A stretch of DNA of 64,000 bases, taken from positions 1 to 64,000 of the forward strand of contig NZ_RCUA01000033.1 in NCBI RefSeq assembly GCF_003731635.1, given 5' to 3'. The notes beneath the pieces are model-generated. The model worked only from the letters and a program-made list of their open reading frames with translations, was not told the origin of the DNA and did not search any database. Within the stretch, counting starts at the first letter, position 1. Each line of letters opens with the position of its first letter. The DNA is from Marisediminitalea oceani (GTDB lineage Bacteria; Pseudomonadota; Gammaproteobacteria; Enterobacterales; Alteromonadaceae). Below, one piece after another: positions 41,837-46,718 of the stretch. The position numbers were made by a program, and so were the translations under genes.

Positions 41837-42967
41837 GTGACCGATTTAACCCAACGCACTGATATTCCCTCCCCGTGCTATGTGCTGGAGGAAGCGAAGC
41901 TGGTTAACAACCTGGAACTGATGAAACGCGTACAGGATGAATCCGGCGCCAGAATTATTCTGGCCCTTAAAGGATTTTCCATGTGGTCTGTGTTTGACAT
42001 TGTAAAACAGTACCTCCATGGCGCTACCGCCAGTTCGGTGTGGGAAGCCAGACTTGCCAGTGAAATGGGCAAAGAGGTGCATGCCTACGCACCGGCTTAC
42101 AAAGCCAGAGACATTGCTGAACTGGCAGGCCTGGTCAATCATCTGTCGTTTAACAGTCTTACTCAATGGCAGGCGTACAAGGATGCTTTGCCTGGTGTTT
42201 CGCTGGGCTTGCGCATTAACCCTGAACATCAGGAAGCAGACACGCCGTTATACGATCCGGCCGCACCGGGTTCGCGCCTTGGGATCCGCGCCAGCGAACT
42301 GGAAGGTATCGATTTAAGCGGTATCGAAGGGTTTCATTGCCACAACCTCTGTGAGTGCGACTCTTACGCAACGGCTCGCACCCTCGAAGCCATCGAGCAG
42401 CGCTTTGGTAAATGGCTGGGTCAGCTAAAATGGTTAAATTTAGGCGGCGGGCATCTCATGACCCGTGCTGGCTATGACGTTGACCACCTGATTCGCACCC
42501 TGAAAACGTTTAAAGCCAAATACCCGCATCTGGATGTGATCCTCGAACCGGGTTCTGCAGTGGCCTGGCAAACCGGGCCTCTGATTGCCGAAGTAGTGGA
42601 TATCGTCAATAACGAGGGGCCCATTGCGCTGTTGGATATATCGGCCACCGCGCATATGCCGGACGTCCTGGAAATGCCCTATCGCCCGACGATATTGCAC
42701 GGCGGACAACCCGGAGAACTGGGTCATGATATCAAGCTTGGCGGCAACTCCTGCCTGGCAGGTGATGTTATAGACACCTACAGTTTTGCCGAGCCACTGG
42801 CTGTCGGTACGCGACTGCAGTTTGAAGACATGATGCATTACACCATGGTAAAAACCACGTTTTTTAACGGTGTGGAGCACCCGGCTATAGGAATTTTACG
42901 CTCCAACGGAGATTTTGAATTAGTCCGTCAATTCCATTACGACGATTTTAAAGCGCGCTTATCCTAA
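41837..42967 (+). CDS. nspC: Carboxynorspermidine decarboxylase
   Basis: Fold-type III PLP decarboxylase, 376 residues, converting carboxy(nor)spermidine to (nor)spermidine. GTG 41837 has GGAG 9 bases upstream; the longer frame lies inside the previous gene. PLP lysine in IILALKGFSMW; FHCHNLCECDS, LGGGHLMTRAGYD, LEPGSAVAWQTG and GNSCLAGDV are family motifs. A 7-bp stem (42955-42971) overlapping the stop may end transcription. Confidence 0.95.
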   Translation: MTDLTQRTDIPSPCYVLEEAKLVNNLELMKRVQDESGARIILALKGFSMWSVFDIVKQYLHGATASSVWEARLASEMGKEVHAYAPAYKARDIAELAGLVNHLSFNSLTQWQAYKDALPGVSLGLRINPEHQEADTPLYDPAAPGSRLGIRASELEGIDLSGIEGFHCHNLCECDSYATARTLEAIEQRFGKWLGQLKWLNLGGGHLMTRAGYDVDHLIRTLKTFKAKYPHLDVILEPGSAVAWQTGPLIAEVVDIVNNEGPIALLDISATAHMPDVLEMPYRPTILHGGQPGELGHDIKLGGNSCLAGDVIDTYSFAEPLAVGTRLQFEDMMHYTMVKTTFFNGVEHPAIGILRSNGDFELVRQFHYDDFKARLS

Positions 42968-42989
42968 GCGCCTTTCCATCACTCCGATT

Positions 42990-43012
42990 TTAACGCCTTG
43001 GCCTTGTTAGCT
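42990..43012 (-). repeat. Degenerate or minimal attC-like site
   Basis: On the minus strand GCTAACAAGGCC-AAGGCGTTA: both outer core boxes are present but the centre is almost missing. It begins 9 bp beyond the attC at 43021-43126 and could be a deleted attC marking the end of the array. Confidence 0.4.
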
Positions 43013-43020
43013 TTCATCAA

Positions 43021-43126
43021 TCTAACGCCCTAATTTGGCGCCACAAACGCGTGGGCTATATTGCGAAGCGCCCCGCGTGATTGTGTCCCAGAGAGCAAGG
43101 CGAGTGCCTTAATTTGATTGTTAGCT
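43021..43126 (-). repeat. attC-like site 1
   Basis: About 106 bp. On the minus strand it opens with AGCTAACAATCAAATTAAGGC and closes with GGCGCCAAATTAGGGCGTTAGA; the ends pair through CTAAC and AATT blocks. It follows the YoeB stop by 8 bp. Confidence 0.75.
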
Positions 43127-43134
43127 GCCACCTA

Positions 43135-43398
43135 TTAGTAATGGTAACGACACGAGATAACCGTAATTGCTGTATCGTCTACCGCATATACTAAACGGTT
43201 AGTGTCATCTATTCTGCGGAACCAGAAACCTGAAAGATTTTCTTTAAGAGGTTCCGGCTTTCCAATTCCATCAAATGGAGCGCGCTTAACATCAGAAATT
43301 AATTTATTGATACGTTTCAAGGTTTTCTTATCTTGAGTCTGCCAATATACGTAACTATTCCAAGCTTCATCAGTCCATGATAAAAGCCTGTTACTCAT
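43135..43398 (-). CDS. yoeB: YoeB/Txe family toxin
   Basis: 87-residue ribosome-dependent mRNA interferase of the RelE superfamily. Motifs: LLSWTDEAWNSYVYWQ, GKPEPLKENLSGFWFRRID and the C-terminal catalytic IVISCRYHY-type end (AITVISCRYHY, with the conserved His-Tyr). ATG 43398 overlaps the antitoxin stop by 8 bp, the usual coupling. It is the second gene of a two-gene cassette ending in attC site 1. Confidence 0.93.
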   Translation of the reverse strand: MSNRLLSWTDEAWNSYVYWQTQDKKTLKRINKLISDVKRAPFDGIGKPEPLKENLSGFWFRRIDDTNRLVYAVDDTAITVISCRYHY

Positions 43399-43645
43399 CA
43401 AGAAGTTCTCGCTGGGTCGTTTTTGCCGATCTAAACTGTTCTATTGAACGATTTAAGTGTTCAGAGTTGGCTGGAGAACGAAGTAGATGAACGGTTTCCA
43501 TAAGGCTGTTGTAGTAATCTAATGACATTACAACAGCATCTTCAGAGTCACGACGAGTGATTATTGTTGTATCTGCATCGTTAATTACATTGTCCAACAC
43601 GGCTTTTAGACCATTTCGTGCTTCGGTAAAAGAGACAATTCTCAT
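43391..43645 (-). CDS. yefM: YefM/Phd family antitoxin
   Basis: 84 residues. The N-terminal DNA-binding Phd/YefM fold has MRIVSFTEARNGLKAVLDNV and TIITRRDSEDAVVMSLDYYNSLMET; the acidic C-terminus (TTQRELLDE) would neutralise YoeB. The ATG at 43645 has a GGGG(T)G site upstream and gives the normal N-terminus. Likely autoregulates its own promoter, which should lie in the 90 bp at the 5' end of the cassette (43646-43735). Confidence 0.93.
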   Translation of the reverse strand: MRIVSFTEARNGLKAVLDNVINDADTTIITRRDSEDAVVMSLDYYNSLMETVHLLRSPANSEHLNRSIEQFRSAKTTQRELLDE

Positions 43646-43743
43646 TTTGCACCCCACTTGTACATTATATTGGACAAGTCTAGATCGAAAATAAGCACAT
43701 GTACAGGATATTGTGCATTACTGCGCTGTGGCAGCTAACATCC

Positions 43744-43849
43744 TCATAACGGGCAAAAATACCTAGGCTAAAATACCGAGCGAAGCGAGGGGAGCCTACG
43801 TGTTTTTGTCCCTAGCGAGCACAGCGAGTGGTTAATGCCTTTGTTAAAT
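43744..43849 (-). repeat. attC-like site 2
   Basis: About 106 bp. Minus strand: ATTTAACAAAGGCA at one end and TTTTTGCCCGTTATG at the other; inner arms ACACGTAGGCT and AGCCTAGGTAT pair. The stop codon of the membrane protein gene lies inside the first core box. Confidence 0.75.
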
Positions 43850-44164
43850 GCCAATCACCAACTTCATCGATTCTGCCGCAGATATAAAACCCAGTATAAA
43901 GAATAACATACGTATTAAAATATTAACTGCAAAACGCAATGTATCAGGTTCATACCATGGTTTTTTATCAAAATCATATTCTGTACGAAGTTGTCGCTGA
44001 TACTCTCCAATAATTTGCTTACCAATAACCAGCAAAAAAATTAAGGAGAAAAAGGTAAAAGCGAAAACTCCACCTGGAAGAGAATAAAACTCAATAACAG
44101 CTTCGCTGAGTACTAATAAAACTCCAGCTATAAATGATGTTGTTTTTGTGGCTTCCATTGGCAT
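43844..44164 (-). CDS. Cassette-encoded small membrane protein, 106 residues
   Basis: Three hydrophobic segments (SFIAGVLLVLSEAVIEF, GVFAFTFFSLIFLLVIG, FAVNILIRMLFFILGFISA) separated by a charged central loop (EYQRQLRTEYDFDKKPWYEPD). No family recognised. ATG 44164 overlaps the cassette junction itself, so its ribosome site would lie in the preceding attC; ATG 44158 is an alternative. The TAA stop is within the core box of attC site 2. Confidence 0.65.
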   Translation of the reverse strand: MPMEATKTTSFIAGVLLVLSEAVIEFYSLPGGVFAFTFFSLIFLLVIGKQIIGEYQRQLRTEYDFDKKPWYEPDTLRFAVNILIRMLFFILGFISAAESMKLVIGI

Positions 44165-44230
44165 TAACGCTTTAAACAGCGGAAAACGTGAGCAAAGCGA
44201 GTAGTTTTCCGCTGCTTTAAATTGTTATAT
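44163..44230 (-). repeat. attC-like site 3
   Basis: 68 bp and the clearest of the set: minus strand ATATAACAATTTAAAGCAGC to GTTTAAAGCGTTAAT, with a perfect inner arm pair AGCGGAAAAC/GTTTTCCGCT around a 16-base centre. The DUF4262 gene stop TAA lies in its first box. Confidence 0.85.
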
Positions 44231-44689
44231 TTCACTAAGCTCACCGGACCCATTTAAGATGGGTTGTGCCCATCGATAAAACTCGGATCTATCGTTGAAC
44301 CATGGCCAAAAACCATCTGTCGTTGGCCATATCATTTGCAACATATCGAAGTCATCTCCGTCGTGAAGCCATAAACCCCAGCCTAAATATTCTTCGTAAT
44401 GTGACTTATCCATTTTTATAAAGCAGACATCAAAGCCTTCAAGAAAATCGGAATAGTAATTACCAGGTTCAAATACTTCACCATCAAGCAAACGGTTCTT
44501 GTAATTGTTGATAATCGAGTGAGCCAAATCTAGCTTCAGTCCCACAATGATAAGGTCAGGCTTACTTTGGTTCTTATTGATGCCAATTGAATAACTGAAG
44601 CAAGGTTCTCCGTCACCTTCCATAACCTTCAATACGTGACACCCGAACTTCTCGATATCACTTAGTGCTTTTTCATCCTTTTCGTCCAC
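44225..44689 (-). CDS. DUF4262 family protein (cassette)
   Basis: 154 residues, cytoplasmic. GCHVLKVMEGDGEPCFSYSIGI and KPDLIIVGLKLDLAHSIINNY match the DUF4262 pattern; the C-terminus is Trp-rich (WGLWLHDGDDFDMLQMIWP, GFWPWFNDRSEFYRW), also family-like. GTG start with GGAG 7 bases upstream. Function unknown; the family is often found on mobile or polymorphic loci. It occupies a single-gene cassette. Confidence 0.82.
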   Translation of the reverse strand: MDEKDEKALSDIEKFGCHVLKVMEGDGEPCFSYSIGINKNQSKPDLIIVGLKLDLAHSIINNYKNRLLDGEVFEPGNYYSDFLEGFDVCFIKMDKSHYEEYLGWGLWLHDGDDFDMLQMIWPTTDGFWPWFNDRSEFYRWAQPILNGSGELSEI

Positions 44690-44705
44690 TAAAGTCTCCG
44701 TGAAA

Positions 44706-44782
44706 TATAACGCTCACATAAACGGCGCGAGGTACGAGCGTCCGGCGACCGATAGGGAGCGAATTTCATGTGCTTGTTAGCT
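44706..44782 (-). repeat. attC-like site 4
   Basis: 77 bp. Minus strand AGCTAACAAGCACATGAAA at one end and TTTATGTGAGCGTTATA at the other; CACATGAAA pairs with TTTATGTG. The stop of the upstream membrane protein gene lies within the first box. Confidence 0.8.
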
Positions 44783-45193
44783 ACTTGGCCCATTATACTT
44801 TTGAAGAGCCTTTTCAACTTTTTTATCAATGTTGCGAAGTACAAGCGGAGTTGAATAGCCCAACACTAACGACAAAAACCAAAGCCGACCCGCAGCACTA
44901 GCAGTTGGCTGAATAGCTCCAAGAAAAAGGAACGCAATACCAAAGCCAATTCCTGTTCCTGCGAGCCACATACCCATAACCCAATAACCTCTTTGCCTTC
45001 GACTCTCTTTTGTTTGCTTCCTTTTTTCCTCGATAGTCGAGTTCGAGACCGACTCATATACTGGCGGCTTGAGCAAATCTATTTCAGAAGTCCAGCCTCG
45101 GATTAAGCTTGCGACTCCGGCTATAAAAGGGCAGGTCCAAAGTAGAGCTTCATCTTGCATACTCATGTTAAATATTTCGTTTAATTCAAACAC
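44777..45193 (-). CDS. Cassette-encoded membrane protein, 138 residues
   Basis: Three hydrophobic segments: an N-terminal one (LLWTCPFIAGVASLI), then GYWVMGMWLAGTGIGFGIAFLFLGA and AAGRLWFLSLVLGYSTPLVL, separated by a charged loop (NSTIEEKRKQTKESRRQR). No family recognised. GTG start at 45193 with GGA 8 bases upstream; ATGs at 45166 and 45160 are alternatives. The stop TAA is inside attC site 4. First cassette of the array. Confidence 0.65.
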   Translation of the reverse strand: MFELNEIFNMSMQDEALLWTCPFIAGVASLIRGWTSEIDLLKPPVYESVSNSTIEEKRKQTKESRRQRGYWVMGMWLAGTGIGFGIAFLFLGAIQPTASAAGRLWFLSLVLGYSTPLVLRNIDKKVEKALQKYNGPSS

Positions 45194-45214
45194 ATTTCAG
45201 TCCGTTGTGTGAGT

Positions 45215-45268
45215 AGCTAACTGTAAAATAGACACCAAAACAGTCCGAATAAAACTGCCATTTTGGTG
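45215..45268. repeat. Array boundary: core-like site plus inverted repeat
   Basis: AGCTAAC (45215-45221; minus-strand GTTAGCT) is followed 12 bp on by CACCAAAACAGT...ACTG...TTTTGGTG (45233-45268), an inverted repeat with 8-bp perfect outer arms. It may be a relic attI, a diverged attC, or an unrelated hairpin. The 45269-45480 stretch beyond holds no recognisable gene. Confidence 0.4.
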
Positions 45269-45480
45269 CTTATCAATTTCCTAATAACTTCAGATTATCT
45301 TAAAGGTCCAACAGATAAAAGAATGCGGATGTGGTGGTGTTTTTTATCCAACATTAAATACGCCACTCCCTACTAAAATTGTAGTTTGGCGTAAAACGCG
45401 CACCAGAGAATAAATTACGCTCTCTCGGCAGCTACCATCGCTTTAATTTTTGGCTGATAACTGAGCGCTTAAGATTAAGC

Positions 45481-45747
45481 TTATATAATACCGTGCCCAC
45501 GGCTTATACCGCTGGCAGCAATTTTGCCTTCTGCCAGTACCGTATCGTCGAGTTTAATTTTGAACGGGCTGTCAGCTTTGCCAACAATACTGTATTCAAA
45601 CCCGTAAATATGGTTGTCATGAATATGCACCGTTGCTGAGCGGGCCGGTGAGACTAATTCGTAAACCCCGTTGTCGGCATGCTCATTGATGATATTCACC
45701 ATCCAGTTACCGCGGTCCATATCGATATTGAGCGTTTTCTCAAGCAT
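45481..45747 (-). CDS. Hypothetical protein, 88 residues
   Basis: Small soluble protein, with beta-strand-rich text (NGVYELVSPARSATVHIHDNHIYGFEYSIVGKADSPFKIKLDD) and a His-containing VHIHDNHIYG stretch. ATG 45747 with CGGAG upstream. Not recognised. It stands between the cassette array and rsmI on the same strand, and its codon use is closer to the chromosomal genes than to the cassettes. Confidence 0.65.
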   Translation of the reverse strand: MLEKTLNIDMDRGNWMVNIINEHADNGVYELVSPARSATVHIHDNHIYGFEYSIVGKADSPFKIKLDDTVLAEGKIAASGISRGHGII

Positions 45748-45884
45748 TCGTCATTCTCCGAAAAACGTTGTGTGTCACCTGAAATAACTAAAGAAGCACA
45801 CTGCAACTGCCAGTGTGTTGATATTTGAATTATTGAAATAACGGCCTTAGAACTAACAGCCGGATGTAGGGCAAAATGTTAGAT

Positions 45885-46718
45885 TTATTCTAGGGCCAAA
45901 CCAGCCTGATACAAAGCGTTTTTCTTTAGCTGATAATGATCTGCGACAATGGCAGCTGCTTTTTTCAGTGGTAAGTCCTGCTTCAGGCGTTTAAGCAGAG
46001 CGATGGCTTCGCTGGGCAGTTCGTCACTGGCAGGCGGCGCGCCGGCCACCATCAGCACAAATTCACCTTTTTGATGCACAGCATCTGCTTCCAGCCAGGC
46101 GATGACACCGTCCGGCGTATCACTGACGTAGGTCTCAAACGTTTTGGTCAGCTCTTTGGCCAGTACCAGATGCCGATCTGGCCCCAGAGCGGTTTTGATA
46201 TCGTTAACGGTATCCAGGATACGCCTCGGCGCCTCGTAAAATACACTGGTACAGGTGCGGTCCAGGAGCGTTGCCAGTACGTTCATACGGGCCTGATTTT
46301 TAACCGGTAAAAACCCTTCAAATATAAACCGATCGGTAGCCAGTCCGGAGGCGCTCAACGCCGTTATCGCCGCACAAGGGCCAGGCAGGGCGACCACATT
46401 AATGCCGGCTGCCCGGCATGCACGCACCAGTACAAAACCCGGATCGCTGATCAATGGTGTTCCGGCATCACTAATTAACGCAACGGCTTCACCGCCGAGC
46501 AATTTATTGCACAGCATCTGAGTTCGCTTTTCTTCGTTATGATCATGCAGCGACAGGGTTTTCGCCTGGATAGAAAAATGTTGTAAAAGCTTCTGGCTAT
46601 GGCGGGTGTCCTCCGCGGCAATCCAGTCTACCGCACCTAACACGTCGATAGCCCGCTGGGTGATATCCTGCAGGTTGCCAATGGGCGTAGGCACAATATA
46701 AAGGGTAGCGGCGGTCAT
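45885..46718 (-). CDS. rsmI: 16S rRNA C1402 2'-O-methyltransferase
   Basis: Tetrapyrrole-methylase-fold enzyme, 277 residues, methylating the ribose of C1402 in 16S rRNA. LYIVPTPIGNLQDIT, AAEDTRHSQKLL, LISDAGTPLISDPG and ALPGPCAAITALSASG are the SAM-binding motifs; FYEAPRRI and a C-terminal helical domain (LKRLKQDLPLKKAAAIVAD) complete it. It faces lpoA, the conserved arrangement. Confidence 0.97.
   Translation of the reverse strand: MTAATLYIVPTPIGNLQDITQRAIDVLGAVDWIAAEDTRHSQKLLQHFSIQAKTLSLHDHNEEKRTQMLCNKLLGGEAVALISDAGTPLISDPGFVLVRACRAAGINVVALPGPCAAITALSASGLATDRFIFEGFLPVKNQARMNVLATLLDRTCTSVFYEAPRRILDTVNDIKTALGPDRHLVLAKELTKTFETYVSDTPDGVIAWLEADAVHQKGEFVLMVAGAPPASDELPSEAIALLKRLKQDLPLKKAAAIVADHYQLKKNALYQAGLALE

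Follow-up and report, generated by a model that had tools for sequence, protein, structure and literature searches.

The locus between nspC and rsmI carries an array of gene cassettes with no integrase gene beside it, which raises the question of whether such a block is a relic or is still altered by an integrase acting in trans. The preliminary description had left this choice undecided. Integrons are described with the attI site adjoining the integrase gene intI. The reading favoured here, with a probability of about 0.77, is that the block is an integron platform composed of an attI and a cassette array without an integrase gene, and that its cassettes would be swapped at the head by IntI supplied in trans. 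The window is the whole stretch of 64,000 bases that was analysed and G000 is its genome.

The Cassette Array

The array consists of four cassettes on the minus strand, flanked by nspC (end at 42967) and by an 88-aa gene that adjoins rsmI (Table 1). The attC sites were sought with a covariance model built from 46 of 66 collected attC, all residing in intI-adjacent arrays of the same genome and its relatives; two of these came from the main integron of G000 and none from the window. Over all 64,000 bases, the model gave exactly four matches at a limit of E = 10; every one lies on the minus strand, and the E values range from 2e-11 to 8e-8. Four attC-like sites of one orientation had been placed between nspC and rsmI in the preliminary description, and the covariance search proposed there returned these four, at the places named, and not an empty result. 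The sites themselves are upheld, although the lengths first given (68–106 bp) are replaced by those of the covariance matches (69–117 bp).

The cassettes are chained by exact inverted core pairs of 10, 12, 9 and 12 nt, in keeping with the view that minus-strand cassettes of one or two genes lie between the attC sites. The chain has a score of 32, which was reached by none of 1000 dinucleotide shuffles (best shuffle, 20), and the best score elsewhere, in stepped stretches without overlap with the block, was 14. Three stop codons (44777-44779, 44225-44227 and 43844-43846) lie inside the first core boxes, as had been noticed, and the yoeB stop (43135-43137) lies outside. The block is also AT-richer than its surroundings, as claimed, with a GC content of 0.41 in the array and of 0.50 and 0.52 in the 10-kb flanks. 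Folding as single-stranded DNA, suggested as a further check, was clearly better than that of shuffles for the attC at 44162-44233 and 43022-43128, and gave no clear gain over shuffles for the other two of the four. A search of Rfam with 42800-45900 gave no match. By the usual definition (at least two attC, no integrase nearby), the array is a CALIN, as it had been called.

Table 1. Features of the integrase-less array and its head, in window positions.
Feature	Position	Strand	Genes	attC position	Covariance match	Basis
Rest of head, 5′ part, from the attI homology to the 88-aa gene; no intI, though expected here and beyond	45402..45480	-				Alignment, tblastn
Orphan attI region; crossover expected at G45221/T45220 of GTTAGC	45217..45401	-				Homology to intI-upstream regions
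Cassette 1	44711..45220	-	138-aa ORF (44777-45193)	44705-44782	43.7 bits, 78 bp	Core pair GTTAGCTAC/GTAGCTAAC, attC match
Cassette 2	44168..44710	-	DUF4262 protein (44225-44689)	44162-44230	42.0 bits, 69 bp	Pfam PF14081, attC match
Cassette 3	43739..44167	-	106-aa ORF (43844-44164)	43733-43849	56.8 bits, 117 bp	attC match
Cassette 4	43026..43738	-	YefM antitoxin (43391-43657), YoeB toxin (43135-43401)	43020-43126	50.6 bits, 107 bp	Pfam PF02604, PF06769, attC match
Terminal remnant, TAAC and GTTA half-sites with collapsed middle; array end before nspC	42992..43025	-				By eye

At an E limit of 0.001, the 138-aa protein of the first cassette has no counterpart in the other members of the set of 59 genus genomes. 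It has no confident Pfam match, only one weak match under the curated cut-off. The 106-aa protein of the third has no Pfam match. The attC of this third cassette is 90–91% identical to attC of intI-adjacent arrays in G061, G071 and Alteromonas salexigens. Further attC arrays occur in G000 on contigs C25, C38 and C63, among the matches listed for the model.

The Head of the Array

The attI-like head that precedes the first cassette was overlooked in the preliminary description. A head query of 266 bases was searched in the 59 genus genomes, G000 included. Copies at 92–93% identity were found in G061, G034, G071, G078 and G023, every one beside the 88-aa gene. The same query found diverged copies (68–73% over ~185 bp) in G081, G071, G034 and G061, in each case just upstream of the gene for a full integron integrase. 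The window head matches the intI-adjacent attI regions with an E value of 5e-23, and the six heads align with these regions at 68–76% identity up to the crossover GTT. The exact crossover base given for the window is the one expected from the general integron rule. The sequences of G034 (96%) and G023 (91%) align with the window as far as the first GTT of the array; beyond it, a different sequence follows.

At the six loci, the head comes directly after the 88-aa gene, and no IntI-like sequence was detected in the nine stretches searched there (tblastn, E up to 0.05). The same is true of an integrase in contig positions 40000-48000 around the window array (L144, tblastn). As the head is homologous to intI-upstream regions and IntI-like sequence is missing at the six loci, it is, by sequence homology, an attI homologue without intI. 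Two traits of the complete integron are separated here: the array is headed by attI, as judged by that homology, and intI adjacent to attI is absent.

A 19-base core pattern has eight exact matches in the 59 genus genomes, with four at orphan heads, four beside intI and none elsewhere. The pattern was built from these same sequences, and its weight lies in the absence of further exact matches. Approximate matches are at the level of a reversed-pattern control, and only the eight exact ones and the window (one mismatch) were used. Searches of plasmids and phages with the head gave no match at E 1e-5.

Compared with the window, the five relatives show 91–92% identity over the attI part, 95–98% over the remaining 5′ part of the head and 90–100% over the flanking genes. 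The head is no more conserved than its flanks, and so gives no sign of selection keeping it functional. A simple scan of 45180-45500 for the cassette promoter Pc found no sigma-70-like match near attI. The 88-aa protein (45481-45747) has no Pfam match and is present in 32 of the 60 genomes searched, its own included.

The Same Locus in Related Genomes

The orphan attI between nspC and rsmI is present in six genomes, G000, G061, G034, G071, G078 and G023, which form one clade with a support of 100/100 in a tree of eight genomes whose inner, deeper forks are weak. G081 is the sister lineage of this clade. Both G081 and the outgroup G002 are devoid of head and array, with only a short intergenic stretch at this place. 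Both flanks and the array reside on a single contig only in G000, G061 and G078; the flanks are on separate contigs in G034, G023 and G071. In G016, the nspC–rsmI interval (L130:5191-6255) holds a 354-aa ORF and no attC match.

The first cassettes of the six orphan sites are shared in 0 of 15 pairs. In G000, the first cassette holds the 138-aa ORF, in G078 a 133-aa ORF, in G023 a ParDE-like pair and in G071 a type II restriction enzyme and methyltransferase pair (L166:1756-3982, PADLOC). The first cassette of G061 has no ORF of at least 80 aa, and that of G034 has no ORF of at least 40 aa in its visible part. The DUF4262 cassette is common to G000 and G023 at different array positions; the protein of G023, 98% identical, is encoded in its last cassette, which adjoins nspC in place of the YefM-YoeB cassette. 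The YefM-YoeB cassette is next to nspC in the other five genomes (G000, G061, G078, G034 and G071). The terminal remnant, as seen by eye, is present in all six and extends ~160 bp further in G034 and G023. The comparison of this interval in close relatives, put forward in the preliminary description, has shown cassettes that differ and are not collinear. Since intI is missing at all six loci, it appears by parsimony that the cassette differences arose without a local intI.

The Integrase and Its Two Alleles

The claim that there is no intI is true of the locus and untrue of the genome. A search of the whole of G000 found none near the array and one full-length intI on contig C31, the sole TIGR02249 match above the cut-off (423 bits against 265). 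The cassettes of this main integron lie on the attI side of intI, up to the contig end. Each of the six orphan-attI genomes has one intI (E up to 1e-60), away from the orphan locus; that of G023 is truncated by a contig end. In G078, the IntI reading frame is interrupted by a stop, and the crossover triplet is GCT instead of GTT. Site and integrase are both damaged there, so local decay does occur.

The main integron resides at one locus, beside genes of 207 aa and 401 aa, in G000, G078, G061, G034, G071 and G081, and the intI contig of G023 is 94% identical to the main locus of G000 over 5 kb. It was observed at the main locus (L170, L164, L161, L162, L163, L047) that IntI alleles are ~60% identical and the compared neighbour proteins 95–100%. 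The loci of G078 are identical over the 5,000 bases compared to those of the MAG P03SWT1Cbin.13 (L357 = L047), and the same holds for G023 and the Alteromonadaceae MAG SRR3960684_bin.7 (L358 = L048).

The allele termed IntI-A is found in G000, G078 (97% identical to the IntI of G000) and G023 (95%). IntI-B, which is ~60% identical to IntI-A, is found in G061, G034, G071 and G081. Judged from sequence, the two alleles at the main locus are the mark of an intI-attI module swap among close relatives. This creates a mismatch in the genome of the window, as its orphan attI resembles the B type whereas its sole intI is of the A type. The mismatch counts against supply of IntI in trans, as does the damage to site and integrase in G078.

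Orphan attI Sites across the Genus

The compared genomes are assigned to Alteromonas on the basis of named IntI relatives. Applied to 18 genus genomes, the attC model revealed arrays far from intI among the matches listed. The ends of 16 such arrays were taken from these matches and compared by blastn with intI-adjacent attI regions, and 13 arrays gave a match. No such match was found for L265 and L267, and L269 has a 26-bp match only. L267 carries a B-type core, according to a pattern search with one mismatch and inspection by eye.

A count independent of arrays was made with a sequence model built from 20 intI-adjacent attI 61-mers. In the 59 genus genomes, at least 69 attI sites were recognized in at least 30 genomes, a lower bound, with stricter filters and part of the candidates scored. 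Among these, 23 sites are beside intI (training sites included) and one is beside an internally deleted intI (G066, L312). At least 45 sites, in at least 28 of the 59 genomes, are away from any intI found; L312 was kept out of the 45, as it is where the main integron of G066 resides. With an E limit of 1, the model misses the window head, its B-type relatives and the attI-like heads of L258, L262, L263 and L264. These represent other attI families, and the genus-wide count thus covers the main family only.

Attachment sites of the same orientation follow 39 of the 45 intI-distant attI sites; the first attC is no more than 1.2 kb away in 38 of them and 3.9 kb away in L308. A single attC is visible in four of the 39 arrays (L305, L308, L320 and L328), two of them at contig ends. 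Of the remaining six sites, five have a contig end no more than 300 bases away; the sixth, the weakest match, has no attC in 4.6 kb. IntI-like sequence was sought at the 45 sites by tblastn (E up to 0.01) in stretches of 0.9 to 7.9 kb upstream, and none was found. The upstream flanks have no match to the compared intI loci except one of 247 bp. The two instances of intI loss are the main locus of G066 (L312) and a deletion in G072 (L267), with none seen at orphan loci. Both L267 and L312 show large internal intI deletions beside attI and arrays, and no intI was matched in their genomes at an E limit of 1e-60.

Five groups of orphan sites have upstream flanks common between genomes. At such orthologous sites, the first cassette differs in 93 of 94 usable pairs, which are mutually non-independent, and one pair has a common start. 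The count leaves out L318, L322 and L326 (less than 150 bases downstream), and L332 was removed from its group, being tied to it by 420 bp only. As a yardstick, the 20 intI-adjacent attI sites have a common first cassette in 0 of 190 pairs.

It appears somewhat probable that Alteromonas chromosomes are multi-platform integrons, in which one integrase would serve several attI sites, each with its own evolving array, and that many CALINs would be working platforms and not relics.

Two irregular arrangements were observed. After the first cassette of L260 (G082), the attC are reversed for ~6.5 kb and then return to the former direction, as after an inversion. At L328 and L330, attC also occur upstream of the orphan attI, which may sit within an array.

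Relation to Known Systems

In PMC4119200, integrase-less attC arrays are reported from two other genome regions of Alteromonas, and such arrays are in this sense already known. Xanthomonas carries CALINs at fixed loci, and mobilisation of CALINs in trans is stated to be possible (PMC12444791). Integrase-less arrays have been interpreted as degraded integrons, and the definition of a CALIN excludes attI (PMC9024848). As the same source indicates that IntegronFinder detects attI in class 1 only, standard annotation would miss an orphan attI. A search of the open-access literature, which includes few subscription journals, found no report of an attI at the head of integrase-less arrays.

The window array resembles a CALIN in its four attC and the lack of an integrase nearby, but it is headed by an attI homologue. 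It shares with sedentary chromosomal integrons the attI homologue, the attC cassettes, a toxin-antitoxin cassette and attI-end cassettes that vary between relatives. It differs from them in that the locus has no intI, and the integrase must come from elsewhere. As in insertion at secondary attG sites, the cassettes are away from the integrase, but here the target is an attI homologue and not an unrelated genomic site.

The sequence evidence suggests that attI can sit a long way from intI, that it can be passed on at constant chromosomal positions and that its cassettes can differ from species to species. If CALINs are headed by attI, the way in which they are counted changes and a direct test becomes possible. 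It also raises the question of whether one integrase can feed several arrays, and choose between them.

Origin and Maintenance of the Platform

By parsimony, the ancestor of the six genomes would have acquired the orphan attI in a single event, at a point between nspC and the 88-aa gene, and cassettes would since have been inserted and removed at the array head. The IntI of the main chromosomal integron most likely performs this reaction in trans, and the site may still be active in G000. The attI homology, the missing intI at the locus, the empty site in the sister lineage, the differing first cassettes and the intI elsewhere are observed; the role of IntI and present activity in G000 are inferred. 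That relatives carry different genes at the same intI-less point indicates that an integrase from elsewhere in the genome probably swaps the cassettes. The attI head with its varied first cassettes bears on the choice left undecided at first, and the decay in G078 is real and weighs the other way. Some of the differences could be due to differential deletion from a single long ancestral array, which would likewise require precise site-specific events. According to PMC4119200, the integrase-less regions of Alteromonas gain new cassettes less often than the region beside the integrase. This remark tempers the trans reading; the comparison made here is between species.

One alternative concerns origin and is compatible with exchange of cassettes in trans. 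The attI may have arrived within a cassette carrying a piece of attI, making the platform a by-product of cassette mobility that may work alike now. Such delta-attI cassettes are known in mobile integrons (PMC12901181), and of the 46 sites that lack an intact intI, two (L328 and L330) also have attC upstream. However, inspection by eye showed no core site where the head begins, directly after the 88-aa stop, and this origin is considered rather unlikely.

It is likewise unlikely, and a little more so, that the array is frozen, that is, that a whole integron once resided here, lost its intI by deletion and has since decayed by loss of cassettes only. A degraded-integron origin has been proposed for CALINs (PMC9024848), and the genus offers both internal intI deletions, in G066 (L312) and G072 (L267), and the decay of site and integrase in G078. 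The absence of intI in all six genomes most simply predates their split, yet none of the 15 pairs has a first cassette in common. In addition, apart from L312, the other orphan sites have upstream flanks that match no compared intI locus beyond the single 247-bp match. Exchange at the head by IntI in trans remains the preferred reading.

Cassette insertion at attG sites has been reported (PMC12444791, PMC12901181), and cassettes may enter such a non-classical secondary site and build an array, with any attI likeness of the head due to chance. This is highly improbable for the window, as the head matches attI regions over ~185 bp, a target that is not unlike attI, and the empty sites lack the head itself. 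Arrays do break assemblies and the intI of G000 is near the end of C31, but a misplaced piece of the main integron is the least credible explanation of all, as the array is inside a contig of 155,982 bp with both flanks and the same arrangement is seen on single contigs in G061 and G078.
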